Origin: Brevibacillus laterosporus
GTDB lineage: Bacteria; Bacillota; Bacilli; Brevibacillales; Brevibacillaceae
Reading direction: 5' to 3'
NCBI GenBank assembly: GCA_007833815.1
Contig: CP033464.1
Span: 3,714,001-3,778,000 of the forward strand
DNA: 64,000 nt
Shown here: positions 23,805-64,000 of the stretch, one piece after another
How positions within the stretch are numbered: the first letter of the stretch is position 1
Layout of the letters: the number at the start of each line of letters is the position of its first letter
The notes under the pieces: generated by a model
What the model was told of the DNA's origin: nothing
The model's input: the letters and a program-made list of their open reading frames with translations, nothing else
Databases searched by the model: none
Position numbers and translations under genes: made by a program

Positions 23805-23813
23805 GTTATCCCC

Positions 23814-26437: not shown

Positions 26438-26476
26438 ATCAAGTGTTCCCCCTTCTCTTCATTTTCTAGTGAATTA

Positions 26477-31606: not shown

Positions 31607-31627
31607 TTGTTATAACCTCCTTTGCAT

Positions 31628-32554: not shown

Positions 32555-33839
32555 ATTCTTTCACCACCCCGGAAGTTGTGCCGTCATTGCCACGCGATCG
32601 CTTATGGTGGGCCCTAGTAAAATCATCAGCAGCCAAAGCACCGATGATAGACAGTTCCCCAGCCAAGACCAGGCCGGCACATACCTCCGCAAGCGCATGT
32701 GCATGCCCGGCACCTGAAAGTCCCATGATTTCAAGGCATGCCTTCTGGCTCGGTAGCCCCGTACCTCCGCCCACTGTACCAACAATGACATTCGGCAAAG
32801 TCGTCGATGCATAAAGGTCTCCATTCGATGTCAGCTCAAACCGAGTGATACCAACAGCTGATTCCGATACACAAGCGACATCTTGTCCTGTTGCTAAATA
32901 TAAAGCAGTCAGCCCATTAGCCACATGACCTTGGGAACCTATCATACCTTGTAGCACTCCACCTACAAAGGCCATTCTCCAGTACTTTTCCATATTCTCA
33001 GGAGTGGTGTGGAAGCGTGAGCAAACCAATTTCGCAGGTAACACCACTTCGGCACAAACTTTTTTCCCCCTCACCGTCATCAAGGATTTTGCAGATGCCT
33101 TCTTGTCGCCAGAAAAGTTTGCTTCAACGAAACTATGCTTGAACAAAACCGGTGAATGTTCGCGAATATAGTTACAGATTTCTTGAGTTGCGATCGTTAC
33201 CATGTTTTGTCCGGCTGCGTCGCCGGTTGAAAATTCGAAATTAAGGTATACATGATTGCCTTCAATCATGTGATCCATTTTGATACACTGTCCGAAGTTT
33301 GTTGTGCTCTTTGCTACTACTCGGAAGGTATCAAATTTGGAAGCCGCCCAGTTCGCAAATCGGCTTGCTTCCACTACGCTCTCAAAGATAAATCCAGGCG
33401 TCCGACCAATTGCTTCTTTCAAAACTACTGCTCTGCAACCGCCTGCTTCACTGATGACCTGTGCACCGCGGTGATAAGAAGCCACAAGAGCAGCTTCTGT
33501 AGTAGCTAATGGAATATAGTAATCTCCTTGTGCATAGAGACCATTTATCCGTAGAGGACCGGCCAAACCTACCGGAATGTTGATTGTGCCGATAAGATTC
33601 TCAATGTTCTTTTGATACAATTCAAGTTGGCTCAATGACTGATGATCTAGTAATTGTTCTCTGGTATCAAGTCCAACTGACAGCAAATCCCATCGAGCCT
33701 CTATTGCTTTGGAAGAAACTCTTGCTCCCCCAGGAACACGCTTTGGAAGAGGGCTATCCTTCGAAGTAAAATTCTCCTGATATCGTTCAACACTTCGAAG
33801 CATGTGATTATCGAATTGTTCAATGGCTGTAAACTTCAT
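32547..33839 (-). CDS. Hydroxymethylglutaryl-CoA reductase, class I-like
   Basis: This 430-residue soluble enzyme reduces HMG-CoA to mevalonate with NAD(P)H. Class I-like signatures are ENLIGTINIPVGLAGPL, STGDAAGQNM and VGTVGGGTGLPSQKACL. All four catalytic residues are visible: Glu in ATTEAALVAS, Lys in GDKKAS, Asp in ATGQDVA, and His in the late RAHHKRSRG. There is no N-terminal membrane anchor. I chose the ATG at 33839, preceded by AAAGGGGATAAAACT, instead of an in-frame GTG nine codons earlier. No mevalonate kinases, HMG-CoA synthase or decarboxylase accompany it in the window. Most relatives of this organism make isoprenoids by the MEP route, so the reductase is probably dedicated to this operon's product. 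Confidence 0.93.
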   Translation of the reverse strand: MKFTAIEQFDNHMLRSVERYQENFTSKDSPLPKRVPGGARVSSKAIEARWDLLSVGLDTREQLLDHQSLSQLELYQKNIENLIGTINIPVGLAGPLRINGLYAQGDYYIPLATTEAALVASYHRGAQVISEAGGCRAVVLKEAIGRTPGFIFESVVEASRFANWAASKFDTFRVVAKSTTNFGQCIKMDHMIEGNHVYLNFEFSTGDAAGQNMVTIATQEICNYIREHSPVLFKHSFVEANFSGDKKASAKSLMTVRGKKVCAEVVLPAKLVCSRFHTTPENMEKYWRMAFVGGVLQGMIGSQGHVANGLTALYLATGQDVACVSESAVGITRFELTSNGDLYASTTLPNVIVGTVGGGTGLPSQKACLEIMGLSGAGHAHALAEVCAGLVLAGELSIIGALAADDFTRAHHKRSRGNDGTTSGVVKEYV

Positions 33840-34520
33840 AGTTTTATCCCCTTTGCAATATGGCACTGGTAGAGTTCAAGAATTATTCAAACGAGGCTCT
33901 CTCAATCTTATTGTGTATCTGAGGAGCCTGTCGGATTATCAATATTCATAATGGATTTATTTCTCTTTACCATTACGATTTTCTAAATTTATAGAATTGA
34001 GATGTAATAAAAATCACTTTCTGTATTTAAACCAATTATTCCAAAAAATTCATATGTGCTTCATTTAATATAGTTGATGCTTTTTTGATAATATTCAAAT
34101 TCTCCCCTCCATTCTGAATCTATTTTATACACTTAAAATTACCCTCGATGAATATTAGCATAAAATGTCAAAAAATACAACTTATTGTAATACACTTCTT
34201 ACCAATTGGAGTGGGATCAAAAAATTGGTTAATAGGATAGATCGCTAATGTAATAATCATCTTCCCCCTCTCCTGACCTTAAGTATCGACTCCTTACTTT
34301 TTTCATAACACAAAGTTATCCTCTAACAATGTATCTATAAAGGGAGTCCACACTTGTTACTGAGAAAAGATTTATTTTAAATGTAAATCAACTTTCTTTT
34401 TACATAATATATAACATTTTACATTTTTTTGACATTTGGTAAGTTAGACTTTATGCACTATATACTAATTTGAAATATATATGAGATAAATATAAATAAC
34501 TAGTTATTGATGGATTTAGC

Positions 34521-40269: not shown

Positions 40270-42564
40270 TTAAGGAGTAGCCGTTACATTATTTCGGACC
40301 ATTCGAGTTGCTGTTACCATATTTTCCAAGGAAGCAATCGTTTCTTTATGACCTCTCGTCTTTAAACCGCAATCGGGATTAATCCAAAACTGTCTAGATT
40401 CAAGCACTAGTAGAGCATTCTCAATCATTTTCACCATCTCTTGCACAGCTGGTACACGGGGACTATGAATATCATACACACCAAGACCAATTCCTTTATT
40501 ATAGGAGTGATGATGGAATGAATGAATTAGTTCACCATGGCTTCGCGATGTTTCTATCGAGATAACATCAGCATCTAAATCACTGATGGAGTCAATAAAA
40601 TCGTGAAACTCGCAGTAGCACATATGCGTATGGATTTGGGTAGTGTCTTTAACAGAAGCAGTGGTTAAGCGGAATGCTTTTACGGCCCATCCCAGATACG
40701 CTTCCCATTCTGTTTTCTTTAACGGCAAGCCTTCTCTCAATGCTGGTTCGTCTACCTGAATCATAGTGATGCCATTGGCTTCTAACGCTTCCACTTCTTT
40801 TTGCAAGGCAAGTGCAATTTGATATGTGACTTGTTGTCTGGTAATGTCATCACGCACAAACGACCAATTTAAAATAGTGACTGGTCCTGTGATCATCCCT
40901 TTGACTGGCCTAGTGGTAAGCGACTGTGCATAAACGCTCTCCTTGACCGTCATCGCTTCAATAAACTCTACATCTCCATAGATAACTGGCGGTTTTACGC
41001 AACGAGAACCGTATGATTGCACCCATCCATTCTTAGTAAAAGCAAATCCACCTAGTTTTTCACCAAAAAATTCGACCATATCTGTTCGCTCAAACTCCCC
41101 ATGAACCAATACATCAAGCCCAACTTTTTCTTGTATCTCAATCCATTCACGGATTTCTGCTTGTATAAATTGGTCATATTGTTCATTAGACCATTCGCCT
41201 TTGCGCCATCTGTTTCTGGCCTGACGAACCTCCGTTGTTTGTGGAAAACTACCAATCGTTGTGGTCGGTAAGATAGGCAGATGCCAGACGTTTTGCTGTT
41301 TTTGGCGGCGTTGTTCATAATTTGATATACGTCCTATCTGATCTGATTTCAAGCTCGCCACAGCTTCATGTACATGAGGACGATTTCTAGCTCCAGAGGT
41401 AGCTACTCGCTCTATGATCGTTTGATTTTCAGCAAGTACTTCTTTGATGCTTTCCGCTCCATTTTGCAACCAATCTGTAACATGCTTGATTTCTATTAGT
41501 TTTTCATCCGCAAACGCCAAGGAATCCTTTACCAGCGTGTCAAGCTGTGTCTCTTGTTTTACACTTATTGGAACATGAAGCAAACTACTAGATGGCTGAA
41601 TCCAGACATGGGATGCATCGACATGGCCTGTAATTTTTGAGAGAAGATTTGTCTTATGAGCTAGATCTGCTCGCCAAATATTTCTACCGTCAATGAGACC
41701 AGCCCCAAGTACTTTGTCTTGTGGGAAGCCGATCGTAGAGATGTGTTCAAGATTACGTCCTGCATCATGAACAAAATCTAATCCAATCCCTCCAACAGGT
41801 AGCTTGATCACTTCTTTGTATAACGTAACAGAACCAAAATAGGTTTGTAGCATAATTTGTAGTTGTGGAACAGCCTCATGGAGTTGTTCGTAGATGTAAG
41901 AAACTGTTTTCATATCGTCTTCGGACAGAGATGTTACGAGAATAGGCTCATCCATCTGAACCCATTCCACACCTTCTTGTGCTAATTCAGTCAGCACCTG
42001 TACATAAAGCGGGATGAGCTGCAAGATAATAGCTGGTATTTGCAAAGGATCAAAGCCTTTTGAGAGCTTAATAAAAGTGTAGGGTCCCACCATAACAGGC
42101 TTGCCCTTAATTCCTAGCTTCTCCTTCGCTTCACGATACGCAAGAAGCGGCTTATTTTCAGTAAGAATTGGTTTGATATCCTGAAATTCCGGAACAATGT
42201 AGTGATAATTGGTATTAAACCATTTAGTCATTTCGCAAGCAACAGCATTTTGATTGCCACGGGCCATTGCAAAATAGGTGGACAAGGGTACAACCCCACC
42301 AGCATAATCATAGCGTTTAGGAACATAGCCGAACATCACAGCCATATCCAACATGTGATCATACATGGTAAAATCATTAACTGGTATCAGGTCAATACCC
42401 ATCTCTCTTTGTTTTTGTAAATGATGAAGCCTACCTTTTTTCATTTGAGCAAGAAACTCTTCCTCTTCAATTATACCAGCCCAAAAAGCCTCTAGTCCCT
42501 TTTTCCATTCACGATTCTCACCAATGCGTGGATATCCTAAATTGCTACTTCTTCCTTTGCTCAT
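40270..42564 (-). CDS. metE: Cobalamin-independent methionine synthase
   Basis: This 764-residue enzyme transfers a methyl group from 5-methyltetrahydropteroyltri-glutamate to homocysteine in the cytosol, the last step of methionine synthesis. The N-terminal barrel begins with SSNLGYPRIGENREWK. The C-terminal barrel holds the zinc ligands: His and Cys in HTHMCYCEF, and Cys in NPDCGLKTRG. LPTTTIGSFPQT marks the start of the second barrel. I chose the ATG at 42564 since AGGAGGGCGAGAAAGC lies directly before it. An in-frame start 18 codons upstream would bury that site. Expression is controlled by the upstream cobalamin riboswitch and terminator, so the gene is made when B12, and therefore MetH activity, is lacking. 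Confidence 0.97.
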   Translation of the reverse strand: MSKGRSSNLGYPRIGENREWKKGLEAFWAGIIEEEEFLAQMKKGRLHHLQKQREMGIDLIPVNDFTMYDHMLDMAVMFGYVPKRYDYAGGVVPLSTYFAMARGNQNAVACEMTKWFNTNYHYIVPEFQDIKPILTENKPLLAYREAKEKLGIKGKPVMVGPYTFIKLSKGFDPLQIPAIILQLIPLYVQVLTELAQEGVEWVQMDEPILVTSLSEDDMKTVSYIYEQLHEAVPQLQIMLQTYFGSVTLYKEVIKLPVGGIGLDFVHDAGRNLEHISTIGFPQDKVLGAGLIDGRNIWRADLAHKTNLLSKITGHVDASHVWIQPSSSLLHVPISVKQETQLDTLVKDSLAFADEKLIEIKHVTDWLQNGAESIKEVLAENQTIIERVATSGARNRPHVHEAVASLKSDQIGRISNYEQRRQKQQNVWHLPILPTTTIGSFPQTTEVRQARNRWRKGEWSNEQYDQFIQAEIREWIEIQEKVGLDVLVHGEFERTDMVEFFGEKLGGFAFTKNGWVQSYGSRCVKPPVIYGDVEFIEAMTVKESVYAQSLTTRPVKGMITGPVTILNWSFVRDDITRQQVTYQIALALQKEVEALEANGITMIQVDEPALREGLPLKKTEWEAYLGWAVKAFRLTTASVKDTTQIHTHMCYCEFHDFIDSISDLDADVISIETSRSHGELIHSFHHHSYNKGIGLGVYDIHSPRVPAVQEMVKMIENALLVLESRQFWINPDCGLKTRGHKETIASLENMVTATRMVRNNVTATP

Positions 42565-42615
42565 GCTTTCTCGCCCTCCTAGACAGGTTATTTTTCGTTT
42601 TGGAACCAACTCAAA

Positions 42616-42659
42616 CAAAAAAAAGCATCTCTTCCGATCAACAGATGGTTAGAGATACT
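42616..42659 (-). terminator. Riboswitch-linked intrinsic terminator of metE
   Basis: On the minus strand AGTATCTCT pairs with AGAGATGCT (9 bp, one G-U) and is followed by a run of nine T residues. It lies between the B12 aptamer and the metE ribosome site, the position of an expression platform that ends transcription when cobalamin is bound. Confidence 0.85.
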
Positions 42660-43750: not shown

Positions 43751-44320
43751 GTGTGGATTTATGAGAAAAAGCTACAGTATCCTGTTCGTGTGAGCAAATG
43801 CGATCCTAAAATGGCAAAGTATTTGATGGAACAGTATGGTGGGGCTGATGGGGAATTAGCAGCGGCCTTACGTTATATGAATCAACGCTATACCGTTCCT
43901 GACAAGGTTATTGGGCTATTAAACGATATTTCCACGGAAGAATTTGCCCACCTCGAAATGATTGCAACAATGGTATATAAACTAACCAAGGATGCTACTC
44001 CCGATCAGTTGGAAGAAGCAGGTCTTGGTGCTCATTACGTAGGTCACGATAAAGCTTTGTTTTTTCATGATGCTGCTGGTGTTCCTTTTACGGCAACTTA
44101 TTTTCAAGCGAAAGGCGATCCGATTGCTGACTTGTATGAGGATATTGCTGCAGAAGAAAAAGCAAGAGCCACTTATCAATGGTTGATTAATATGACCGAT
44201 GATGTCGATTTAATCGATAGCCTTTCTTTCCTGCGCGAACGTGAAATCGTACATTCCCAACGGTTCCGTGAAGCAGTGGAAATTCTAAAAGCAGATCGTG
44301 AACAACAAAAGATTTTTTAA
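43751..44320 (+). CDS. cotJC: Spore coat protein CotJC, manganese catalase family
   Basis: This 189-residue four-helix-bundle protein is of the manganese catalase family and is the main cargo of the CotJ coat complex. Likely metal ligands sit in ELAAALRY, STEEFAHLEM, EEKARATY and REREIVHSQRF, so both carboxylates and histidines of the dinuclear site are kept. The start is a GTG preceded by AAGGGGGG, followed by WIYEKKLQYP, the usual N-terminus. It probably protects the spore against peroxide or acts structurally. A hairpin at 44372 ends the operon. Confidence 0.93.
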   Translation: MWIYEKKLQYPVRVSKCDPKMAKYLMEQYGGADGELAAALRYMNQRYTVPDKVIGLLNDISTEEFAHLEMIATMVYKLTKDATPDQLEEAGLGAHYVGHDKALFFHDAAGVPFTATYFQAKGDPIADLYEDIAAEEKARATYQWLINMTDDVDLIDSLSFLREREIVHSQRFREAVEILKADREQQKIF

Positions 44321-50723: not shown

Positions 50724-51788
50724 TTAGGATTCTGTGCCGTTCTCTCGTTGCTCTTGTAGTTCTTCCATCTTGGATCGGACAGCTTGGGCAAAACGCTCTG
50801 GTTCGTCGACTTTGAACATGATGCGTCTAAATTCCTTTTTCATACCGAACACACCATAGTGAATAGCCGGTTCTTTGACTTTGATCTCGAATGATGGGGA
50901 GTCCATCATCAGTGTAGTATTGATCACATCTGGGTCTCCTTTTTCAAACGGGTTGAGTGCAACATTGCTCATGTTTGGGGATTGAAGTGCTTCGATGTTG
51001 GCGATGTCGATCACGGCAACACTTTGGTAACCAGCATAGAGTGTGACTTTGTCGTCAGTGACGGTGCAGAGTAGGTACTTGACAGAGTTGTAGAAAGCGA
51101 TGATGTATAAAGCTGCGTAGATGCTGAACGCGGTTGCAATCCAGGCTGCGATTTCGCTCCACATCGAAAGCAGCCAGTGTAACAGCACAGTCTCAGCTGC
51201 AAGCAACAGACCGAAAACCATCATCATCGTTTTGATAATCGTTGTCTTATGGTAGCTAAATGAGATGTCTTCCCGAATTTCCGGCTTTTTGAACAGAACA
51301 CCGAAAGAATAGTAGAACAGCTTAATCTCAGAGAGGAAAACTTCTTTGAGCGGGGTGTTGCCGAACAATTTGGTCAGCGCCACTTCCATCGCGTCATAGA
51401 AACTTAGTTCACGATTCGCTTGTTTTTTGCTTTCGCGGTAAAGACGGAAAATTTGAAAGAAGATAAAACAAATAAAAAAGACTTCAACCAGTGGTGCAAA
51501 GTAGAAAATGACGTAATCCAGGTAACGCTGATGGGCATCTGGTATCAGGTACTTCGAGACAAAAATCTCGACGAAGAAGGCAAAAAACAGCGAAATTTTG
51601 TTCGGAATGACCAGTAGATTGACTAGGAATGGGATGGCGAACATCAGAGCTAGTGTGATGAGCAGATCGATCATGTCACTTTTGGCTGGATATACGTGCA
51701 TGTAATAATAGCTGCCCCCATAGATCATTCCAGCCAAAAACAGGAAGACTATCAGCGACGCAGAGCGGTTCTTTTCTGTGGTTGTCAT
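50724..51788 (-). CDS. Membrane protein of unknown function, six helices plus C-terminal soluble domain
   Basis: I do not recognise this 354-residue protein. Four hydrophobic segments lie in the first ~125 residues. A charged cytosolic loop (KKQANRELSFYDAMEVALTKLFGN) and two more helices follow at about 190-245. The last ~110 residues are soluble. They have alternating hydrophobic strands (VTDDKVTLYAGYQSVAVIDI, FRRIMFKVDEPERFAQAV), somewhat like a bacterial PH domain. Proteins of this general look are sometimes labelled beta-carotene monooxygenase in Bacillus genomes, without any support in the sequence. It is the third gene of the NRPS-SET / SpeD-like unit, 109 bases beyond the SpeD-like gene. 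A role in membrane sensing, immunity or export for that system is possible but unproven. Confidence 0.75.
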   Translation of the reverse strand: MTTTEKNRSASLIVFLFLAGMIYGGSYYYMHVYPAKSDMIDLLITLALMFAIPFLVNLLVIPNKISLFFAFFVEIFVSKYLIPDAHQRYLDYVIFYFAPLVEVFFICFIFFQIFRLYRESKKQANRELSFYDAMEVALTKLFGNTPLKEVFLSEIKLFYYSFGVLFKKPEIREDISFSYHKTTIIKTMMMVFGLLLAAETVLLHWLLSMWSEIAAWIATAFSIYAALYIIAFYNSVKYLLCTVTDDKVTLYAGYQSVAVIDIANIEALQSPNMSNVALNPFEKGDPDVINTTLMMDSPSFEIKVKEPAIHYGVFGMKKEFRRIMFKVDEPERFAQAVRSKMEELQEQRENGTES

Positions 51789-51835: not shown

Positions 51836-51859
51836 GTGGTACCGTCAAGGCGATACCAC
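51836..51859 (-). terminator. Weak hairpin between SpeD-like and membrane genes
   Basis: On the minus strand GTGGTA and TACCAC close a 12-base loop and are followed by CCCTTTTCCTTTTTG. It may cause partial termination between the two genes, but the stem is short. Confidence 0.35.
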
Positions 51860-51897: not shown

Positions 51898-52272
51898 TTA
51901 TTCACGGATAATAACTTGATATTGGACATTTTCAGGCCCAAACACATCAATGATGCTTTGTCTAACCTGCTCCTCAGAAAAGTCTTTGCAAGAGAAGACA
52001 TCGAGGTAACCCTCGCGGTGCAGGTCGTTGGTGTGGAGGGTAATGCTACTGGTGTAGATCAGTTGTATTGCAGAAAGACCGATTTCTTCACCGTCACCGA
52101 AGCGGTAGCAGTGACAATCACCGAAGGCGACCATGTCGATGTCTTTAACGAGTTTGGTAATGAATTCTTTGACCACATCGATGCTAAGGATGTTCTCGTT
52201 GCATTTTTCCATGTGAACCAAAACATGTTTTCCATAGCAAGCTTTACCTTCGTGCATAATACGTTTGTACAT
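51898..52272 (-). CDS. S-adenosylmethionine decarboxylase-like protein (SpeD family, small)
   Basis: This 124-residue protein shows the core of prokaryotic AdoMet decarboxylase, the pyruvoyl enzyme that makes decarboxylated AdoMet for spermidine synthesis. In TSSITLHTND, Ser75 aligns with the serine that becomes the pyruvoyl group and His80 with the processing histidine. Cys95 in LDVFSC is exactly 15 residues later, as in the Thermotoga enzyme. The residue before the cleavage serine is Thr instead of Glu, so self-cleavage is not certain. GGGAGATG precedes the ATG. It follows the NRPS-SET gene by 73 bases on the same strand, linking an AdoMet-processing enzyme to an NRPS that carries an AdoMet-dependent SET domain. 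No aminopropyltransferase (SpeE) is present in the window. Confidence 0.75.
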   Translation of the reverse strand: MYKRIMHEGKACYGKHVLVHMEKCNENILSIDVVKEFITKLVKDIDMVAFGDCHCYRFGDGEEIGLSAIQLIYTSSITLHTNDLHREGYLDVFSCKDFSEEQVRQSIIDVFGPENVQYQVIIRE

Positions 52273-52345: not shown

Positions 52346-52777
52346 TTAATTTCTGGATCTAACTACTCGACCTGTGATGGACTTGCGACAATTGGCTGCA
52401 CCACATCCGCATTCGAACTGGCGGAACAGGTCGTCTTCAGTGGTTTCATAGTCCATGGTGATGTAGTTACCCGGCTTGATTTCTTTGACAGCTATGAATA
52501 CCTGAGTGTCCATGTCAACCACAGTGTTAGGATCGCAGGAGTGAAGTACTTTTCCCATGCAGTATGGATCTTCCACATAGAGACCCGAACGTTTTTGCAG
52601 AGTGTACAGAGTTTGATGGGAAAGTTGCGGTCCATCGAAACGGAAGACTACGTCGCCTGGTTGGATGACTGTCTTGGAGATCACACCGTCACCAAATTCT
52701 GCTCTATTGATAACCTCTACTCTATCTTTAGTTGGTTCAAACGGGTGGTACGGAACGGTCTCAGGATAGATGCGGTC
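52346..52777 (-). other. SET methyltransferase domain with post-SET cysteines fused to the NRPS C-terminus
   Basis: The last ~143 residues of the synthetase, after a linker following the terminal C domain, carry SET-family motifs in the correct order. GDGVISKTVIQPGDVVF is an opening strand. LHSCDPNT matches the NHSCxPN AdoMet/substrate pocket motif with Asn replaced by Leu. VFIAVKEIKPGNYITMDYE matches the IxAGEELTxDY motif including the catalytic Tyr. CGCGAANCR matches the post-SET zinc-binding CxCxxxxC cluster. The frame is continuous with the NRPS and no start signal is visible at the junction, so this is a true fusion. SET domains N-methylate lysine or related amines; the target here is unknown. 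Confidence 0.85.
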
Positions 52778-55700
52778 CGTTGATGGAGGTGCGAGTTCCG
52801 GTGCCATCGCTATTGCGATTTCGGAGGTTGCCACTCTCCATTCATTTTTAACAGCCTGTTTGTCTTTAATGGTAATCCCCACCTCTTCAAATTTTGCTTG
52901 CACATTGTACAAGAGTTCATCAAGCAACGACAAGTAATCTTGCGCCATCTCTTCAATGGTCGACTGATTGAACAGTTCAACGCTGTAACCGAAGGAGAAA
53001 TGGATGAAGTCGTGTTTTTCAATCGCTTCCAGATAGATGTCGTATTCGCAAATTTTGAATTCAAATGGATGCGGTACGACGTGAAGACCTTCGAATTCGA
53101 TATCGCTCATCTCGTAGTTGAGCATGGAAAATACTGCGTCAAAGAGTGGAGTGCGGTTCTCGGATTTAGGAAGCGCTAGTTTTTCCGTTATCATTTCGAA
53201 TGGATAGAGTTGATTCTCATAGCATTGAACGATATTCTCTTTGACGTCGGTGAGGAAGTCCTGGAAGTTCAGGGTGCCCCGTGGATTGGCGCGGAAGGCC
53301 AAGGTGTTGATAAATAGACCGATCATCTTACTGAATTCTTCACGCGGTCTTCCTGCTTGCCATGTACCCACTACGATATCTTCTTGTCCGGTGTACTTTT
53401 GCAGAAGCACATAGAATGCGGACAAAAGGGTGATGTAGATAGTGACGCTGTGTGCTTCAGAGAATTCGTGAAGCAGCTTGGTACGTTCGGCATCGACTTG
53501 GAAGAAGATTTTTTCTCCATCGAACTGCTTTTGTTCGGGACGTGGGAAGTCGGTTGGGAGATTGAGTTGCGGGATGTCGCCACTAAAATACTCCAACCAG
53601 AATTGCTCCTGTCTCTGCCCCTCTTCGCTGTGCAGCCATGCATCCATCCAGTGCGTATACTCCTTGTATTGTGCGGTCAGCTCAGGTAGTTCGTGGTCGC
53701 CATAAAGCTGCATCAATTCGTCCATGAAAACGCTAAGAGAAGTGCCGTCGGAAATAATGTGGTGCATGTCGACGAACAACGTGTGCCGCTCCTCGCCGGA
53801 GCGGATCAGAACGGCGCGGAGCAGAGGGGCTTGATGGAATTCGAACGGCTGAATTTGGGCCTGTACGAGTTCCGTCACTTGCTCCTCCTCTGCTTCGATC
53901 ATAGTGATGTCAAAGCAAAGCTCGTCGTGAACGACGAGTACTACATCACCATCGACTATATCAAAGGAGCTACGCAGCGATTCATGGCGATTGATCATGG
54001 TCTGGAATGCCTTGTGTAACAATTCTACATTCAGCTTGCCTTCGAACGTGACGGCGAAAGGAATGTTGTAGCTGATCTCCCCTGCGGCACGCTCGTAAGT
54101 GTAACGCTGGTATGGAGAGGCTTTATAGTACGGGCGTTTTTCCAGTAGCTCGAGCGCGGTGTAGGTTCCTGCATCTTGGCCTTTGATGTAGTCGGTCACC
54201 TCCCAAAGGATTGGAGTCTGGAACAGAACCTTCAGCGGGACCTTCACTCCGGTTTCTTTGTGCATCAGGGAGATCAGAGATGCGGCTTTGAGCGAGTGAC
54301 CTCCTAGTTCAAAGAAGTTGTCTTCTCGTCCGACGCGGCTTGCACCGAGTACTTCGGCCCAGATAACAGCCAGTTTCTCTTCCAGTTCACCCTGCGGTTC
54401 CACATAACGACTGGTAGTGAGTGCGGAAGCGTCTGGTTTTGGCAGGGCTTTGCGATCCACTTTGCCGTTGACGGTCATCGGGAACGTTTCGAGCGCAATA
54501 AAATAGGCTGGGATCATGAAGCTTGGCAACGCTTCGCCGATGTGTCTGCGCAACTCGCTGATGCTGAGTTCGCGGGTAGCTGTATAGTAAGCACAGAGAG
54601 CAGTGGTGCCAGCGTCGTCGCTAGCTATCACGAGGGCTTCGGTGATGGCATCGTGTTGTAGAAGGCGTGTCTCAACCTCCCCTAGCTCGATGCGGAAGCC
54701 TCGCACTTTTACCTGATGGTCGAGTCGGCCCAAATACTCCAGAGTGCCGTCATCGATCCAACGGGCCAGATCACCAGCACGATACATCGTCTGACCTGGT
54801 AAGAACTGATTGGGTACAAAACGCTCCGCTGTTAAATCTGGGCGATGGAGATAGCCACGTGCCACACCGTCGCCACCGACGTAAATCTCCCCTTTTACCC
54901 CTATTGGTACCGGTTGCTGGAATTCATCCAAAATGTAAACGGTGAGCGTCGGGATCGGCGTACCGATGTTGGACTGATTCTTGTTCATCTCGGATTGGGT
55001 AATTTCTTTGTAGGTGACGTGTACGGTGGTCTCTGTGATGCCATACATGTTAATGAGTTGGGTTGCCGGGTATTTCTCATGGAACTTGCGAAGCTGGATC
55101 GGTGCTAGAGCTTCACCGCCGAAAATCACGTAACGGATGGACAGGTCGCTCTCCTCTACTATCGCCTCTTCCTGAACTAGCGCGTAGAAAGCGGTTGGGG
55201 TCTGGTTAAGCACAGTCACCCGTTCCTGTTTGAGAAGCTGGATAAAATCTTTTGGCACACGAGCAATCTCTTTTGGTACTACAACAACACGGCCACCGTA
55301 GAAGAGAGCACCATACATCTCCCACACAGAGAAGTCAAAGCAGTAAGAGTGGAACATTGTCCAGACATCGTTTTCGTTAAAATCAAACATCATGCGGTCA
55401 TTCTTCATCAGGCGGATGACATTGCGGTGTTCGATCATGACACCTTTTGGCTTGCCGGTGGAGCCAGAGGTGAAGATGATATACGCGAGGTCATCTGTTG
55501 TGGCGGTTGCCTGTGTCATCAGCTCGGCTGACTGTTTTTCCCACTCGTCTGGATGATCAAGGTTAATCGGTTGGACTTGCTCGGCAAAAACATCATAAAT
55601 TCCAGCGTGATGCGATTCAGTGATGATCGTGTCCATACCTGTGTCCTCGACGATTGCTGCAATACGCTCTACTGGATATTCCGGATCGATTGGCACATAG

Positions 55701-58700
55701 GCTCCTCCAGCTTTCAAAATCGCCAGAATTGAAATAATCATGCGTTCAGATCGGTCCAAAAGCATTCCGATTAGCGGATTGCGCTGGTGCTGAGTCATCT
55801 GCATCAGACGGTTAGCGATTTGGTTGGCCTGCTCGTCCAGTTCCCGGTACGTGAGGTGTTTGTCGCCGTATGTGACAGCGATGCGGTCTGGTGTCAGACG
55901 CACCTGTTCCCCAATCAGACCATGGATCGTCGCTTCACGCGGATAGTCCGCATCAGTTTGGTTGAAGTCGTAGATAAGGTGTTGCTTCTCCGCTTCGTCT
56001 AACATGGTGAGTTGTCCCATCGACAGGTCTGGCTGTGCGATGGCTCCCATCAGCAATGCGATCAAATGGTGGGCCATACGTTCTATGGTGGCACGCTTGT
56101 ACAGACTGGTGCGGTATTCCCACTCAAAGTAAAGTTTACCGTCACGCTCCAGCACCGATAATGTCAGGTCGAACTTAGCTGCGTTGTGCGTGTACTCGTA
56201 TGATGTCATCGTGAGGCCCGGCATGGTACTGTCGGCAAACTCTATGTTCTGTACGGTCAGCATCGTATCAAATAGCGGATTTCGGTTACGGTCACGCTGA
56301 ATGTCGAGTTTTTCGATCAGCTCTTCCAGCGGATATGTCTGGTGTTCATAAGCCTGTAGCACGTTAGTTTTCACTTCGCCCAAGAACTCGCGGAATGATT
56401 TAGACATCACAGGGTAGTTGCGCATAGCAATCGTGTTGACGAACATCCCCATCACGTTCTCTAGGTCAGCTTTTAAGCGTCCTGCTGTCGGTGTCCCGAC
56501 GATGATATCGTCTTGACCGGTATAGCGGGCGAGGAACAGGTTATAGGCTGCCAGCATGGTCATATAGAGCGTTGCATTGGTCTCGCTTGAGAGAGTGAGC
56601 AACTGGGCTGTCTGTTGCTCGTCCAGCCCGAAGCGGATCACGTCACCTGCATAATCAGTGACGATCGGTCGGCTGTGGTCGGTCGGCATCTCCAGCACTG
56701 GAAGCTCACCGGCAAAGTTGTCAATCCAAAAACGTTCGTCCTCACCGCTGACTTGACTATGCTCCCGTTGCCATACGGCATAATCTTTGTACTGGATAGC
56801 GAGCGGCGGCAGTTCGTTCCCTTGATATAACTGATTAAGTTCGTGCAGGAACAGGTTAAGCGATGTCCCGTCGGAGATGATGTGATGCATATCGATCAAG
56901 AACACCTGCTGCTCGCTGGCCACGCGGAAGATGGTAGCGCGGATGAGCGGTGCTTTGCTCAGATCGAATGGTTGGATATAGTCAGTCAACGTGCGGCGCA
57001 GGGTTTCTTCATCGATTTCGACCAACGTCAGCGGGATACCCGCTTGATCGTGGATCAGTTGGATAACCTCTTCTCCCCTCATTTCAAAAGAGGTGCGGAA
57101 TGCCTCATGACGCTGTACCAATGTATTAAGTGCGGATTGTAGCGCTGATAGGTCAAGCTCACCATCCAGTCGGACTATCAGCGGCATATTGTAGCTGATG
57201 CTAGCCCCTTCAAACTGGTTGATGAAATAAAGTCTTCGCTGGGCGGACGATGCCGGGTAATACTCGCGCTTCTCCACTGTTTGGATAGCTTGATAGGTCT
57301 TTTGATTGGCCTTGCTGATCGCGTGAGCCATCTCTTTGACCGTCTGATGGAGAAACACTTGCTGGAGGCTGAATTCTACTTCCAACTGTTTCTCAATACT
57401 TGCCGACAGCATCGTAGCGCGTAAGGAGTGACCGCCGCGGTCGAAGAAATTATCTTCGATGCCGATTCTTTCTACTCCAAGTACCTCGGACCAAATCTGG
57501 CAAAGTACTTTTTCGGTCGGGTTGGTCGGTGCCACGTACTGGTTGGCATACAGCTCCAATCTAGGTTCTGGTAGCGCACGGCGGTCGAGCTTGCCGTTCG
57601 GGGTGAATGGTATCACCTCAAGCACCATGAAGACTGATGGAATCATATACTCTGGCATACGGGCGGACAGGTGAGCCCGTAGTTCAGCGATACCAAGCTC
57701 AGAATGTGCAACGAAGTAGGCGCACAAGTAGGTTTGATCGTTTTGATCGCGTTTGACAAGGACAACAGCTTCTTTGACCTGTGGATGTTCTTTCATCTGC
57801 ACGGCAATCTCGTCTGGCTCAATGCGGAAACCACGAATTTTTACAAGGTTGTCAGCGCGATCAAGGTAATCGATGTTACCGTCTGTAAGCCATTTGACCA
57901 AATCCCCTGTCTTGTACAAGCGTTCATCTGGGTTAAACGGATTTGGGATGAACTTCTCGTTAGTCAGGTCTTGACGGTTCAAATACCCTCGCACCAAGCC
58001 TTCTCCACCGATGTAGAGCTCGCCTGGAACACCGACTGGCACTAGATGTAGGTGCTTGTCTAACACATACAACTGGGTACGGCTGAGAGGTTGACCAATT
58101 GGTATTGAGCTGACATCCTCCTTGATCTCGGCGATGTGATAGTAGCTGGCAAAGACAGTGGTTTCTGTCGGTCCGTATATGTTGTAAAAACAGTTCGGAC
58201 CGAGAAAATCAAGTGCTTTACGAGCTTGTTTGGGCGACATTTTTTCACCGCCGACAAACAATTTACGCACGTTGCCCAAGCACTCCAGGTTCACGTCGAC
58301 TAAGGTATGAAACAGCGCAGTTGTCATGAATATCACACTGATCTGGTGAGTCGAGATCAGATAGGAAAGCGCATGGACATCGAGCATCTCGTGGCGCTTC
58401 ATCATCACCAGTTTGGCCCCGTTCAAGAGCGCCCCATAGATATCGAAGGTGGAACCATCGAACACGTAGTTAGAAATTTGCAAAAGGCTGTCGGTGTGAC
58501 TCAAATCGACATAGTTGGTATCCTTGACGACACGAATAATGTTGGCGTGCGTGGTGAGCGTCCCTTTTGGTTGACCTGTGGTTCCCGAGGTAAACATCAC
58601 GTAGGCGAGATGTTGTGCGGTGAGGTCACCCGCTTTAGGATTGCTTACATCACTATGGTAAAGCAGCGTCGGGTCATCAAGATTGATCAACTCTTGGTCC

Positions 58701-61700
58701 AGATCATAGTTGCCGATCAGATGAGACTGGGACAACACCAGTCGGGCCTTAGTGTCACTAAGCATGAATCGGATGCGCTCGATTGGATACGCTGGGTCAA
58801 TCGGCACATAGGCGCCTCCTGCTTTTAGTACGGCTAGCATGGCAACGATCATCACCGGTGCTCTGTCGATAATCAAACCTACTTTTTCCTCTGTTCCTAC
58901 TCCTCTCGCTTGAAGAGCATGGGCAAGGCGGTTGGTTTGTTCGTTAAGCTGACGGTAGCTCCACTCCTGATCCTCGAATACCAGCGCAATCTTATCCGGA
59001 TGCGCAGAGGCCTGCTTTTCAAACAATTGAGGAATGGTAGCTGTGATCGGTGCTTGCCCCCGTTCTGAATTAAACTCATCCAAAAGTTGGCGCTCCTCCT
59101 CTGCCGTAATCATTCGGATGTCGGCGATTGGCTTGTCCGCATGTTGCAGGGCATGGATGATCAGTTGGTTGAGGTGGTTAGCCATCCGCTCAATTGTTTC
59201 CCGCTTAAATAAGTGACTGCTGTATTCCCAGTTGAAGTAAATCTTGCCGTCTGCTTCGATGGCGAGCAACGTCAGATCGAACTTGGCCTTCTTCATCTCG
59301 TATGGAAGGGCGGTGATGGTCACGTCCGTGAGCTGAACAGATGCCAGTTCGAGGTTTTGCAGGGTAAACATCGTGTCAAACAGAGGGTTACGGCTCGTGT
59401 CACGGGCAAGTCCCAGCTTTTCGATCAGTTCTTCGAGCGGATAATCCTGATGTTCATAGGCTAACAGGACGTTTTCTCTTACCTCGGCAATAAACTGGCG
59501 GAAGGTCTTGGTCGCTTTTGGCTGGTTACGCAACGCCAGAGTGTTAACGAACATCCCCATCACCTGCTCAACATCGGCGTTCGGACGTCCGGCGATCGGT
59601 GTGCCGATACAGATGTCTTCTTGGTCAGTATATTTGGCAAGCAACATCTGATACAGCGCAAGCAAGGTCATAAAAAGGGTTACTTGTTCTTCATGGATGA
59701 ACGAGTGTAGTTCAGCTGTCCACTCGGCAGGCAGTTCGGTCTGGAGAATCTCTCCATCAAACTGTTTGACCACAGAACGCGGGTAGTCGGTTTGAAACTC
59801 CAGCACCGGAACTTCATCAGCGAACTGATTCAGCCAGTAAGATTCCTTGGTGGCGAACGCTTGTGACTGACTGCGTTGTTGCTGCCAGATTGCGTAGTCT
59901 TTGTACTGAATGTGGAGTTCTGGCAACGCCGCGCCAGCGTAAAGCTTGCTGAATTCATCCATAAACAGGCTCATCGAGACACCGTCGGAAATGATATGGT
60001 GCATGTCAATCACAGCCACATAGGAATGGTCGCCCAGTTGGATCAGACGGGCACGCATCAGAGGGGCTTGCCCGAGATCAAATGGCTGGATTGCCTGCTT
60101 AATCAACTCGTCCTGCTCCTCTTTACTTGCTTGGATAAGCTCAAATGGTAGCCCTACAGTTGGCTGAATCCGTTGCACCACTTCCCCATCCACCACGGCA
60201 AAAGAGGTGCGTAGCGCTTCGTGACGTTGGATCAAGCTCTCAATCACACCCGTAAAGCGTGGAATGTTAAGAGGACCGTTGATTTCCAGCACAAGCGGCA
60301 TGTTATACGCAATATCTACGCCAGAGAACTGGTTGACGACATACATACGTTTTTGCGTCGAAGAAGCTGGGTAATACTCGCTTGGCACGGCAGGTTGGAT
60401 CGTTAATTCGTCTGAACTGTCCCCTCTCTTTTTCTCTTGCAGGGCTTGCTTCAGGCAGTCCGCAAGTTCTTGAAGCGTCGGTTTCTGGAAGAATGCTGTG
60501 AGTGGCACCTTCACCCCGAAATCCTTCTGGATGCGAGAGATTACAGTAGTCGCCCTAATCGAATGTCCGCCAAGCTCGAAGAAATGGTCGTTACGGCCGA
60601 TGCGTTCAACCTTTAAAACGCTAATCCAAATGTCAGCCAGCGCCTGCTCCAGTTCGTTAATCGGTGCTTCAAAAGGGCGTTCTGTCAAAAGGGTGCTGTC
60701 TGGCTGCGGCAGGGCGCGTCGGTCTACTTTGCCATTGGCGGTGAGCGGCAGGCTATCCAATTGGATGAAGAACGTCGGAATCATGAACGTTGGCAACAGG
60801 TTATTCAGGTAATGACGAAGACCTGCAGTACTCATCTCTTCTGCCGCCACGTAGTAGGCACAAAGATTGGTGTCGAAGGCGGTCACCACAGCTTCTTTCA
60901 CCGCAGGATACTGGAGTAGTCTGGTCTCGATCTCCCCCAGTTCGATGCGGTAGCCCCGTATTTTTACCTGCTGGTCGATCCGCCCAAGGAACTCGAGCTG
61001 TCCATCTTGGTTTATTCGCACGAGGTCGCCGGTACGATAGATGGTCTGCTCTGGAAGGAGCGGATGCGGTACGAATTTTTCTGCAGTCAAATCTGAGCGG
61101 TTGAGATAGCCACAAGCCAGTCCCGTTCCACCTATGCAGAGTTCGCCCGGTACTCCGATTGGTTGCAGTTGACCGTGTGAGTTGAGCACGAACACGTGAA
61201 CGTTCTGGATAGGGCGACCGATCGGCAGGTTATTGGATGCCTTGGTTAGTGTAGTAGATGTCGCAACGACAGTATTTTCAGTCGGGCCGTAGTTGTTGAC
61301 GAGTCGGTATGACCTTGGAGTAAAGGTCTTAAGCTTGTCGCCACCAGTCAAAAGTACGCGCAGTGAGCGGTTATCTAGCTCTTGGAATGACTCACACAAT
61401 TGGGTCGGCAAGAAGCTTATGGTGATGCCATGTGTTTCGAAATAAAGATTAAGCTGTTCCACATCAAGGCGGATGTCATCAGGAATGATGTGCAGGGTAG
61501 CTCCTGTGACCAATGTTGGGAAAATTTCCCAAACTGAGGCATCAAAGCCGAAACCTGCATATTTGGTTGTATGATCGGCTTCCGTCAGCTCGAAGTCGGT
61601 TTGATGCCACAAACAAAGATTGACGAGTGAATGGTGCTCGATCATGACCCCTTTTGGCTGTCCAGTGGAGCCTGAGGTATAGATGACATAGGCCAGACTG

Positions 61701-64000
61701 TCTGGCTTGACAATCGCTTCGAGTGATTCAACGGTCTTTGTTTGATACAGTCTGTCATCTGTAAGGAACAGGGTCTCTCCTGTGTATGTCCACTCCCCTA
61801 CTGTTGCTACGCTGTCCGTATTGCGGTGGATGAGCAAGAGTTTGGCTTTGCTGTCGGTTAGCATGTATTCGATACGTTCTGCTGGATACTCAGGGTCGAT
61901 CGGCAAAAAGGCTGCTCCCGCTTTAATAATCGCGATCAATCCAATGATCATTTCCAGTGAGCGGTCACTGATGATGGCGACGATGTCTTCATGTCCCACA
62001 CCTTTTGCACGCAAGGTCTGCGCGAGGCGGTTGGCTTTTTCATCCAATTCGCGATAAGTCAGTTGCTGATCACCGTATACCACAGCGATCTGCTCTGGCA
62101 TAGCGCCTGCTTTTTGTTCGAACAGCTTCTGCACAGTGATGTCTTGGGGGATGCTCGTGAATGTGTTGTTAACTCCTGTGAGCAGGTGTTCTTTTTCAGC
62201 ATCGGTCATCATGTCAATGTCGATCAGCTTGATATCCGGTTGCGCAATCACTTGATTGAGAATGCACAGATAATGTTGGGTCATCCGCTCTATCGTCTCA
62301 TGACGGAACAGTTGGGTCCGGTACTCCCAGTCAAACACAATTTTGCCTTCGCGTTCAGCTGCTACCACGGTCATGTCGAATTTGGCTATATCATGAGTGA
62401 ATTCATAGGAGCTCATTGCCAGATTAGCCATCGGGAAGGCGGAAACATCGATATTCTGTACGGAGAACATGACGTCAAAAAGCGGATTGCGGCTAACGTC
62501 ACGCTGAACATCCAGCTTTTCGATCAGTGTCTCAAGTGGGTAATCCTGATTTTCGAACGCTTTGAGGCTGTTCGCTTGGACTTCGCTCAGGAATTGGCCG
62601 AACGTCGCGTCAGTCACAAGTTGGCTGCGCATCGCAAGCGTGTTGACGAACATCCCCATCACATGTTCTAGTTCAGCCAGTTGGCGTCCGGCAATCGGGG
62701 TACCAATGACAATATCATTTTGGTCGCTGTATTTGTGAAGTAGGACATTAAGTGCGGCCAGCAGGGTCATATACAAGGTACTACCCTGTTCGTTGCAGTA
62801 AGTCAGCAAACGCTCACTCTGGCTTTCGTTGAGTTCGAATTCGATGCGCGCACCCGCGAACTCTTGAACAGTCGGGCGCGGGAAGTCAGTCGCAAGCTCC
62901 AGCACAGGAATGTCACCGCTGAAGGTGTCGAGCCAATATTTCTCCTGCGCCTTTGCTGCACCTCTTTGCATGATCGCTTGTTGCCAGACGGCATAATCTT
63001 TGTATTGAATCGAGAGCGGTGCCAATTCCACGCGGGCGTAGAGTTGAGCCAACTCATGTAGGAAAATGTTCATGGAAACACCGTCAGAGATGATGTGATG
63101 CATGTCGAGTACGAGCAGATGGTCTTGTTCCCCGATTCGGAAAAGTCCGACTCGTGCCAGTGGTGCCTGACTTAAATCAAAAGGTTGAATGAACGTGTCG
63201 ACCTCTTTTTTCAGTAATTCTTCGGTGGCTTCGATATAGGAAAACGGCAATTCGGCTTCCTTATGAATCTGCTGCATCAACTCTTCGTCTACGGTGACAA
63301 AAGAAGTTCGGAGCGATTCATGACGATGGGTCAGTGTGCGGACGGCTTCTTGCAGGCGTTCGACATCAAGTGGTCCGTTGAGCCGCATCATCATCGGCAT
63401 ATTATAGGTTAGTTCCGCGCCGTCGAATTGGACGGTCACATATAGACGTTTCTGTGCTGAGGTCGACGGATAAAAGTCACGAGCTTCTGCTGGAACGAGT
63501 GGCGGTAAGGTACCCTCATCAGCCTCTGTGATGTAAGTCGCCATCTGCTCGACGGTCGGATGGCTGAACACTTCTTTGAGTGGATACTGGATGCCAAAGT
63601 GCTTGTTGATTCGAGAAACCAGCATTGTCGCTTTGAGAGAATGGCCGCCCCGTTCGAAAAAGTTATCGGTGATGCTCACTTGAGTAATACCTAGCACTTC
63701 GGCCCATATTTCTGCCAGTTGTTTCTGTGTTTCGTTCTTAGGTGCCACGTATTCGCTTCCACTGGCGATGGTCTCCGGCATCGGGAGTGATTTGTGGTCA
63801 ACTTTGCCATTGACGGTCAGTGGGAGAGAATCGAGTGCTATATAATAGGAAGGAATCATGTAATCCGGCAGCTCTGCTGACATATGCCCACGCAGTTCGG
63901 TGGTACTCACTTCATCAGCTTGCACGTAGTACGCGCAAAGTGTTGCGTCGTCAGAAATTACCTGCACGGTTATGACCGCTTCATTTATCGCAGGGTGCTT
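52346..64000 (-). CDS. Giant NRPS, [A]-T-C-A(Leu)-T-C-A(Ile-like)-T-C-A(Thr)-T-C-SET; 5' end outside window
   Basis: The frame is open to the right window edge and begins inside an A domain, so the true start is beyond it; 3884 residues are visible. Counting from the edge, T (GGHSLKA ~120), C (HHIISDG ~305), A ~820, T ~1144, C ~1336, A ~1850, T ~2190, C ~2375, A ~2890, T ~3235, C ~3416 and a C-terminal SET domain follow one another. Pocket residues read DAWFLGNVV (exact Leu code), DGFFFGIVF (closest to Ile) and DFWNIGMVH (exact Thr code). No epimerase, thioesterase or reductase is present. The last C domain has an intact HHIISDG and would release the chain onto an amine or hydroxyl nucleophile. 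The gene is clearly GC-richer than the first NRPS operon. Its SET tail is described in a separate entry. Confidence 0.95.
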   Translation of the reverse strand, partial: KHPAINEAVITVQVISDDATLCAYYVQADEVSTTELRGHMSAELPDYMIPSYYIALDSLPLTVNGKVDHKSLPMPETIASGSEYVAPKNETQKQLAEIWAEVLGITQVSITDNFFERGGHSLKATMLVSRINKHFGIQYPLKEVFSHPTVEQMATYITEADEGTLPPLVPAEARDFYPSTSAQKRLYVTVQFDGAELTYNMPMMMRLNGPLDVERLQEAVRTLTHRHESLRTSFVTVDEELMQQIHKEAELPFSYIEATEELLKKEVDTFIQPFDLSQAPLARVGLFRIGEQDHLLVLDMHHIISDGVSMNIFLHELAQLYARVELAPLSIQYKDYAVWQQAIMQRGAAKAQEKYWLDTFSGDIPVLELATDFPRPTVQEFAGARIEFELNESQSERLLTYCNEQGSTLYMTLLAALNVLLHKYSDQNDIVIGTPIAGRQLAELEHVMGMFVNTLAMRSQLVTDATFGQFLSEVQANSLKAFENQDYPLETLIEKLDVQRDVSRNPLFDVMFSVQNIDVSAFPMANLAMSSYEFTHDIAKFDMTVVAAEREGKIVFDWEYRTQLFRHETIERMTQHYLCILNQVIAQPDIKLIDIDMMTDAEKEHLLTGVNNTFTSIPQDITVQKLFEQKAGAMPEQIAVVYGDQQLTYRELDEKANRLAQTLRAKGVGHEDIVAIISDRSLEMIIGLIAIIKAGAAFLPIDPEYPAERIEYMLTDSKAKLLLIHRNTDSVATVGEWTYTGETLFLTDDRLYQTKTVESLEAIVKPDSLAYVIYTSGSTGQPKGVMIEHHSLVNLCLWHQTDFELTEADHTTKYAGFGFDASVWEIFPTLVTGATLHIIPDDIRLDVEQLNLYFETHGITISFLPTQLCESFQELDNRSLRVLLTGGDKLKTFTPRSYRLVNNYGPTENTVVATSTTLTKASNNLPIGRPIQNVHVFVLNSHGQLQPIGVPGELCIGGTGLACGYLNRSDLTAEKFVPHPLLPEQTIYRTGDLVRINQDGQLEFLGRIDQQVKIRGYRIELGEIETRLLQYPAVKEAVVTAFDTNLCAYYVAAEEMSTAGLRHYLNNLLPTFMIPTFFIQLDSLPLTANGKVDRRALPQPDSTLLTERPFEAPINELEQALADIWISVLKVERIGRNDHFFELGGHSIRATTVISRIQKDFGVKVPLTAFFQKPTLQELADCLKQALQEKKRGDSSDELTIQPAVPSEYYPASSTQKRMYVVNQFSGVDIAYNMPLVLEINGPLNIPRFTGVIESLIQRHEALRTSFAVVDGEVVQRIQPTVGLPFELIQASKEEQDELIKQAIQPFDLGQAPLMRARLIQLGDHSYVAVIDMHHIISDGVSMSLFMDEFSKLYAGAALPELHIQYKDYAIWQQQRSQSQAFATKESYWLNQFADEVPVLEFQTDYPRSVVKQFDGEILQTELPAEWTAELHSFIHEEQVTLFMTLLALYQMLLAKYTDQEDICIGTPIAGRPNADVEQVMGMFVNTLALRNQPKATKTFRQFIAEVRENVLLAYEHQDYPLEELIEKLGLARDTSRNPLFDTMFTLQNLELASVQLTDVTITALPYEMKKAKFDLTLLAIEADGKIYFNWEYSSHLFKRETIERMANHLNQLIIHALQHADKPIADIRMITAEEERQLLDEFNSERGQAPITATIPQLFEKQASAHPDKIALVFEDQEWSYRQLNEQTNRLAHALQARGVGTEEKVGLIIDRAPVMIVAMLAVLKAGGAYVPIDPAYPIERIRFMLSDTKARLVLSQSHLIGNYDLDQELINLDDPTLLYHSDVSNPKAGDLTAQHLAYVMFTSGTTGQPKGTLTTHANIIRVVKDTNYVDLSHTDSLLQISNYVFDGSTFDIYGALLNGAKLVMMKRHEMLDVHALSYLISTHQISVIFMTTALFHTLVDVNLECLGNVRKLFVGGEKMSPKQARKALDFLGPNCFYNIYGPTETTVFASYYHIAEIKEDVSSIPIGQPLSRTQLYVLDKHLHLVPVGVPGELYIGGEGLVRGYLNRQDLTNEKFIPNPFNPDERLYKTGDLVKWLTDGNIDYLDRADNLVKIRGFRIEPDEIAVQMKEHPQVKEAVVLVKRDQNDQTYLCAYFVAHSELGIAELRAHLSARMPEYMIPSVFMVLEVIPFTPNGKLDRRALPEPRLELYANQYVAPTNPTEKVLCQIWSEVLGVERIGIEDNFFDRGGHSLRATMLSASIEKQLEVEFSLQQVFLHQTVKEMAHAISKANQKTYQAIQTVEKREYYPASSAQRRLYFINQFEGASISYNMPLIVRLDGELDLSALQSALNTLVQRHEAFRTSFEMRGEEVIQLIHDQAGIPLTLVEIDEETLRRTLTDYIQPFDLSKAPLIRATIFRVASEQQVFLIDMHHIISDGTSLNLFLHELNQLYQGNELPPLAIQYKDYAVWQREHSQVSGEDERFWIDNFAGELPVLEMPTDHSRPIVTDYAGDVIRFGLDEQQTAQLLTLSSETNATLYMTMLAAYNLFLARYTGQDDIIVGTPTAGRLKADLENVMGMFVNTIAMRNYPVMSKSFREFLGEVKTNVLQAYEHQTYPLEELIEKLDIQRDRNRNPLFDTMLTVQNIEFADSTMPGLTMTSYEYTHNAAKFDLTLSVLERDGKLYFEWEYRTSLYKRATIERMAHHLIALLMGAIAQPDLSMGQLTMLDEAEKQHLIYDFNQTDADYPREATIHGLIGEQVRLTPDRIAVTYGDKHLTYRELDEQANQIANRLMQMTQHQRNPLIGMLLDRSERMIISILAILKAGGAYVPIDPEYPVERIAAIVEDTGMDTIITESHHAGIYDVFAEQVQPINLDHPDEWEKQSAELMTQATATTDDLAYIIFTSGSTGKPKGVMIEHRNVIRLMKNDRMMFDFNENDVWTMFHSYCFDFSVWEMYGALFYGGRVVVVPKEIARVPKDFIQLLKQERVTVLNQTPTAFYALVQEEAIVEESDLSIRYVIFGGEALAPIQLRKFHEKYPATQLINMYGITETTVHVTYKEITQSEMNKNQSNIGTPIPTLTVYILDEFQQPVPIGVKGEIYVGGDGVARGYLHRPDLTAERFVPNQFLPGQTMYRAGDLARWIDDGTLEYLGRLDHQVKVRGFRIELGEVETRLLQHDAITEALVIASDDAGTTALCAYYTATRELSISELRRHIGEALPSFMIPAYFIALETFPMTVNGKVDRKALPKPDASALTTSRYVEPQGELEEKLAVIWAEVLGASRVGREDNFFELGGHSLKAASLISLMHKETGVKVPLKVLFQTPILWEVTDYIKGQDAGTYTALELLEKRPYYKASPYQRYTYERAAGEISYNIPFAVTFEGKLNVELLHKAFQTMINRHESLRSSFDIVDGDVVLVVHDELCFDITMIEAEEEQVTELVQAQIQPFEFHQAPLLRAVLIRSGEERHTLFVDMHHIISDGTSLSVFMDELMQLYGDHELPELTAQYKEYTHWMDAWLHSEEGQRQEQFWLEYFSGDIPQLNLPTDFPRPEQKQFDGEKIFFQVDAERTKLLHEFSEAHSVTIYITLLSAFYVLLQKYTGQEDIVVGTWQAGRPREEFSKMIGLFINTLAFRANPRGTLNFQDFLTDVKENIVQCYENQLYPFEMITEKLALPKSENRTPLFDAVFSMLNYEMSDIEFEGLHVVPHPFEFKICEYDIYLEAIEKHDFIHFSFGYSVELFNQSTIEEMAQDYLSLLDELLYNVQAKFEEVGITIKDKQAVKNEWRVATSEIAIAMAPELAPPSTDRIYPETVPYHPFEPTKDRVEVINRAEFGDGVISKTVIQPGDVVFRFDGPQLSHQTLYTLQKRSGLYVEDPYCMGKVLHSCDPNTVVDMDTQVFIAVKEIKPGNYITMDYETTEDDLFRQFECGCGAANCRKSITGRVVRSRN

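Follow-up and report, generated by a model that had tools for sequence, protein, structure and literature searches.

A BurB-like SET domain at the end of a Brevibacillus nonribosomal peptide synthetase and its predicted part in peptide release with a sulfonium amine

A giant nonribosomal peptide synthetase (NRPS) gene of Brevibacillus laterosporus ends in a SET domain. What does a SET domain methylate at the end of a peptide assembly line, and what is its product for? We studied this question in a stretch of 64,000 nucleotides, which we call the window (GenBank assembly GCA_007833815.1, contig CP033464.1, positions 3,714,001 to 3,778,000 of the forward strand). An earlier note on this DNA, made from the sequence alone, regarded the domain as a lysine methyltransferase. 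The reading that we favour, with moderate confidence, is a different one: the SET domain would make S-methylmethionine (SMM), the protein encoded by the neighbouring gene would decarboxylate SMM, and the terminal condensation (C) domain would release the peptide with the resulting amine.

The synthetase is encoded by the last of the four NRPS genes of the cluster, whose frames measure 3901, 2574, 2552 and 4773 codons from stop to stop. It consists of four C-A-T modules followed by C-SET, and its frame, checked in the genome, has no internal stop. The SET domain occupies the final 141 residues (4633-4773), in frame after T-C; on translation, the motifs LHSCDPN, ITMDYE and CGCGAANC (CxCxxxxC) are read in the same frame as the T-C end of the NRPS. 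The earlier note had placed the domain at 52346-52777, correctly: the stop codon lies at 52346-52348, and the match to a BurB-like profile spans 52367-52771. It had also called for a search with the Pfam SET profile, a missing match being its first doubt. This doubt is removed, as PF00856 scored 26.3 bits (E 1e-5), above its cut-off of 22.4, and the Pfam match to Condensation (PF00668) immediately precedes it, while no NCBIfam family was named for the SET region at E 0.1. The claim that a SET domain ends an NRPS is thus borne out. The positions of the features are collected in the table.

Table. Features of the SET-NRPS locus (positions in the window)
Feature	Position	Strand	Basis or remark
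NRPS gene, in-window portion	52346..63967	-	Runs beyond the window edge to 4773 codons
Last carrier (T) domain motif FFELGGHSL, donor for the terminal C domain	54290..54316	-	Motif
Terminal condensation domain, predicted release onto a free amine	52862..54187 (upper limit approximate)	-	Pfam, motif, tree, selection
Terminal C active site HHIISDG	about 53744-53764	-	Motif
Linker, about 30 residues, joining the terminal C domain to SET	52772..52861	-	Translation; Pfam C match ends at about 52862
C-terminal SET domain, BurB type, predicted methionine S-methyltransferase	52349..52771	-	Pfam, best solved relative, fold, family alignment
Pyruvoyl-type SAM-decarboxylase-fold protein, 124 aa, predicted S-methylmethionine decarboxylase	51898..52272	-	Pfam, fold, SET pairing
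Terminator-like hairpin after the decarboxylase gene	51836..51859	-	Likely operon end
Predicted membrane protein, 354 aa, beyond the hairpin	50724..51788	-	Membrane nature read by eye

The second doubt of the earlier note concerned an artificial join at about 52777-52860 due to an assembly or sequencing error. A second species of the same genus (G029) keeps the fusion at 87% identity, in an open frame of 4770 codons and with the same two downstream neighbours. The SET region has a dN/dS of 0.125 between the two species, the terminal C domain one of 0.089 and the next gene one of 0.025. Because the fusion is kept in a second species under purifying selection and both frames are open, an artefact is refuted; we leave it a negligible probability and treat the fusion as virtually certain. 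No match at E 0.001 was found in the remaining 38 of 40 family genomes, a set that includes the genome studied here, and the order-level search covered the same 40 genomes. In a phylum sample of 398 genomes, six had a SET match including the own genome, and the best other match had E 2e-12.

The upstream NRPS genes encode a loading module (AMP ligase, reductase-like domain and T, read by eye) and six further modules, and E-type domains close three of the NRPS genes; these upstream domain calls are based on motifs rather than on Pfam. Together with the four modules of the last gene this predicts ten residues. Tentatively, we take the adenylation codes in gene order to be Pro, D-Leu, Pro, D-Leu, Ile-like, D-unknown, unknown, Leu, unknown and Thr, where the residue assignments, the equation of gene order with order of action and the reading of the E domains all follow general rules.

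Which kind of methyltransferase is the SET domain? Its best solved relative by sequence was BurB (E 3e-21), and histone methyltransferases ranked after it at 6e-7 and worse. A structure model, also called for by the earlier note, was built from 36 family sequences (pLDDT 89.6). BurB structures took ranks 1-3 among its matches (TM 0.85, 1.7-2.0 A, 37% identity), and the histone methyltransferases listed after them gave TM 0.58-0.66. A BurB-like profile, built with the window's own SET sequence included, scored 176-177 bits with the window SET versus 12.9 bits with the other SET protein of the genome. According to excerpts of two papers, BurB converts free methionine to SMM in vitro (PMC12542666; PMC7496086), it leaves two other tested thioethers unmethylated (PMC12542666), and decarboxylation of SMM is the following step of its pathway (PMC7496086).

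These comparisons bear directly on the roles suggested in the earlier note, namely N-methylation of a lysine- or polyamine-like amine on the product or methylation of the carrier domains. A classical lysine or protein methyltransferase would account for the SET fold, the post-SET cysteines and the weaker matches to histone methyltransferases (e.g., MLL1, E 6e-7), and a product lysine is conceivable, as three adenylation codes have no residue assigned. Nevertheless, BurB is far closer both in sequence and in fold, and this explanation leaves the partner decarboxylase, which indicates a small-molecule pathway, without a role. We therefore disfavour the first role, find the second unsupported, and consider a lysine or protein methyltransferase very improbable.

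The assignment to the BurB family is observed; the substrate is a matter of prediction. In the sequence alignment, the BurB pocket positions T73, H93, Y124 and R133 are kept in the window SET, whereas five others are changed (R42 to F, A44 to D, H72 to Y, S88 to M and H138 to G). Several pocket positions vary among other relatives in the family alignment also. Position 88 is Met in every one of the 13 decarboxylase-paired alignment rows, and the paired Rhizobium protein has Ile there; a substrate of its own is therefore possible for the paired clade. The changed residues weaken the case for a BurB-type enzyme but do not overturn it. In the SET tree, which has few columns relative to its number of rows, the window protein shares a group (97/91) with Paenibacillus and Alicyclobacillus proteins that stand alone and are likewise paired with this decarboxylase. 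The window and the paired Bacillota rows sit inside a set of 14 paired rows and one unpaired row (98/88); the paired Rhizobium row (L015) falls outside this set, and hence the paired SETs are not one clade. We consider it likely that the domain is a BurB-type methionine S-methyltransferase, homology and co-occurrence with the decarboxylase being what suggests SMM as its product.

The partner gene lies 73 bases from the NRPS gene. Its 124-aa product matches Pfam AdoMet_dc (PF02675, 5.9e-16) and falls below the cut-off of the NCBIfam equivalog for true SAM decarboxylases (39.5 bits against 75.65). Its model (pLDDT 92.5) matches Thermotoga SpeD with TM 0.80 at 17% identity. In the alignment it retains the catalytic residues Ser, His and Cys, and it has HTND where true enzymes have HTYP or HTFP; the marker Pro, conserved in all true AdoMetDCs according to an excerpt of PMC10407285, is absent. 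A canonical SpeD is encoded elsewhere in the genome (124.9 bits versus 58.8 for the cluster gene). As a separate SpeD exists and the canonical marks are missing, we disfavour a true SAM decarboxylase for spermidine synthesis.

A terminator-like hairpin follows the decarboxylase gene and likely ends the operon; the 2-kb stretch holds four terminator-like sites versus 1.6 expected from shuffling. The predicted membrane protein beyond the hairpin has no Pfam family above cut-off, and among the loci compared it is kept beside the pair only in the second Brevibacillus species. A role in immunity or export is possible.

The pair of SET and decarboxylase genes recurs. The genomes of 84,980 species were scanned with the SET alignment, and the best 80 of 136 relatives were kept. 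Among these 80 loci, a SAM-decarboxylase-fold neighbour stands beside the SET gene in 12 (two of them, L023 and L024, are near-copies); besides these, the pair was found in a Rhizobium plasmid, the window and the second Brevibacillus species. An Orn/DAP-type PLP decarboxylase is present instead in 31 of the 80. It is adjacent to or fused with SET in 30 of these and about 5 kb off in L066. In two loci the SET and the PLP decarboxylase share one frame, by Pfam in L038 (L038:8286-10004) and by a weak tblastn match only in L042 (L042:4284-5999). Our tests found neither decarboxylase in the remaining 37 of the 80, of which 20 are from Pseudomonas and some are on short contigs. That decarboxylases of two unrelated types accompany one SET family suggests that the product is a common one. 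Of the 40 genomes of the own family, the same 2 encode close relatives of both proteins, and a third genome has a decarboxylase match of 25% identity that resembles ordinary SpeD.

On the Rhizobium plasmid p7 (L015:13952-15864), an asparagine-synthase-like gene directly precedes the SET and decarboxylase genes; it is possibly an amide-forming user of the amine.

Viral homologues allow the active site of the decarboxylase to be compared with the presence of SET. Viral contigs gave no match to a single SET sequence; the SET alignment found one locus, and two further viral SET genes came to light through a decarboxylase scan. Contigs L110, L111 and L190 encode the pair. Phage records gave no SET match. 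The viral set comprises 81 loci with a SAM-decarboxylase-fold protein (80 from the decarboxylase scan and one from the SET alignment). The motif H[TS]ND occurs in three of them, all with a SET gene, and the other homologues have HF (68), ESH (1) or other motifs (9). No SET gene was found in fetched flanks of up to 3 kb at any of these 78 loci, which are not independent, as some contigs are short and some are near-copies. Outside the viruses, 15 of 15 SET-paired decarboxylases compared have H[TS]ND. The H[TS]ND proteins do not form a single clade in the decarboxylase tree, where branches are long and L015 and L190 stand apart. The active site of the decarboxylase thus varies with the presence of SET, as would suit an enzyme acting on the SET product.

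Could the partner instead be a SpeD-fold ornithine or arginine decarboxylase, so that the terminal C domain adds putrescine or agmatine and SET N-methylates this amine or its precursor? Such decarboxylases are known (excerpt of PMC10407285), putrescine is carried by glidonins (excerpt of PMC10587159), the viral tree neighbours of our decarboxylase bear letters of the ornithine group, and the altered BurB pocket positions of the window SET would agree with another substrate. Gln, Thr, Phe and Tyr are given as the diagnostic residues of the SpeD-fold ornithine decarboxylase (excerpt of PMC10407285); at positions that are themselves inferred, the cluster protein has Q, T and Y, and Phe of the HF position is absent. 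Such marks are fallible: the ornithine clade also contains a Sinorhizobium phage protein that is a true AdoMetDC (excerpt of PMC9992855). However, the SET-paired enzymes form a motif class of their own, H[TS]ND versus HF in 68 of the 81 viral homologues, the SET-family member with a known activity methylates methionine on its sulfur, and an amine N-methylase would not explain why one of two decarboxylase families replaces the other beside SET. We consider this alternative unlikely. The partner decarboxylase probably acts on SMM, as homology and co-occurrence with SET suggest.

How would the amine reach the peptide? No thioesterase (TE) follows the terminal C domain; there is only SET and then the stop codon. 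The second, catalytic His of HHxxxDG is kept in the terminal C domains of both species, and in the second species N replaces the first His (NHIISDG). The stem of the terminal C domains in the tree is 0.96 compared with 0.32-0.49 for the other pairs of the 14-row group, a value that carries a long-branch warning. Eight acidic columns are unique to the terminal C domain, whereas nine of ten control pairs give 0-4; this evidence is weak, as the remaining control C domain gives 10. As a precedent, the C13 domain of glidonin synthesis is established to condense free putrescine onto a peptide (excerpt of PMC10587159).

A different fate of SMM or its amine has to be weighed at this step. Either could be used elsewhere, as an osmolyte, in a DMSP-like route or as a building block, while the terminal C domain closes the peptide into a ring or hydrolyses it, as fungal terminal C domains do (excerpt of PMC11546977). 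The 12 paired genome loci agree with such a use, as none has an NRPS in the fetched flanks (a match in L033 is an AMP ligase); the use of the amine for release therefore rests on the two species with the fusion. On the other hand, SET is fused to the terminal C domain and the decarboxylase gene lies next to the synthetase gene, which ties both to release, and the 26 window proteins scanned include no aminotransferase or aldehyde dehydrogenase of the DMSP methylation route. We regard a use elsewhere as improbable. Release onto 3-dimethylsulfoniopropylamine is, by analogy and from the architecture, the outcome to which we incline, and it is the least certain step of the scheme.

In the scheme that we propose, the cis-fused SET domain would convert free methionine and SAM to SMM, and the neofunctionalised SAM-decarboxylase-fold partner would turn SMM into 3-dimethylsulfoniopropylamine and CO2. 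On the terminal C domain, found in the place of a TE, the amine would attack the decapeptidyl thioester on the last carrier. The released decapeptide would then end C-terminally in a permanently cationic sulfonium amide. There is about an even chance, in our estimation, for the wider claim that an NRPS carries the enzyme starting the synthesis of its own sulfonium release nucleophile, possibly with local hand-over, and that SMM decarboxylases are a fourth substrate class of the SAM-decarboxylase fold, travelling with BurB-like SETs in Spirochaetes, Bacillota, Alphaproteobacteria and viral contigs.

If true, the architecture is a genetic signature for peptides ending in a permanent sulfonium cation, and some Spirochaetes, Bacillota and viruses are predicted to make 3-dimethylsulfoniopropylamine. 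The pair of SET and H[TS]ND decarboxylase would be a two-step route from methionine to this amine, one that can be tested directly in E. coli. A releasing C domain that accepts a sulfonium amine would be a tool for placing a fixed charge on peptides.

The window holds further genes of interest. Cobalamin-independent methionine synthase is encoded at 40270-42618, about 10 kb from the SET end. A manganese catalase frame of 189 aa (43751-44320) covers positions 1-198 of a 284-position profile and looks shortened. The run at 23367-33866 encodes HMG-CoA reductase, a UbiA prenyltransferase, a PEP-synthase-like protein, DUF3419, a family-less protein, GNAT, an AMP ligase near olefin beta-lactone synthetases and a P450 fragment, and may form an isoprenoid-derived pathway of an unusual kind. 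At 2-20333, on the minus strand, lie three large frames, of 557 aa (incomplete at the window edge), 3587 aa and 2351 aa, and then comes a thioesterase protein; this is presumably a second NRPS or PKS cluster.

The earlier note knew of no described NRPS that ends in a SET domain. Among the matches listed, a search of the open-licence literature for SET domains with NRPS terms gave only one paper with both, a fungal genome-mining review, and nothing on point. To our knowledge, this would be the first SET domain within an assembly line. In the same literature, Brevibacillus with sulfonium and nonribosomal peptide gave no match, and sulfonium-propylamine with nonribosomal peptides, the amine by its names or the bleomycin terminal amine gave nothing on point among the matches listed. 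The peptide bleomycin A2 has 3-(dimethylsulfonio)propylamine as its terminal amine; we know of no SET-NRPS fusion in its system.

The closest known relative of the SET domain is BurB of the malleicyprol/DMSP pathway, which is similar in sequence, fold and C-terminal cysteine motif and whose pathway likewise includes a decarboxylase; a Streptomyces homologue of BurB is MSMT (excerpt of PMC12542666). In contrast to the window SET, which is fused to the NRPS end, BurB is a free tetrameric protein of 172 aa (excerpt of PMC12542666). Its pathway makes DMSP as a starter unit. In the window the partner decarboxylase has the SpeD fold, and several pocket residues of the SET differ. The decarboxylase has the fold and the Ser, His and Cys positions in common with the SpeD-fold SAM, ornithine and arginine decarboxylases (excerpt of PMC10407285). 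Unlike them, it lacks the AdoMetDC Pro, has H[TS]ND in place of HF and is predicted to act on SMM, a substrate not mentioned in the excerpts of the papers on this fold that we consulted. Finally, the likeness to glidonin lies in a C domain that ends the chain and is predicted here to take a free cationic amine (excerpt of PMC10587159). The last module of the glidonin synthetase has further domains, unlike that of the window (excerpt of PMC10587159), and in our case the amine is predicted to be a sulfonium, with the enzyme that starts its synthesis on the same polypeptide.
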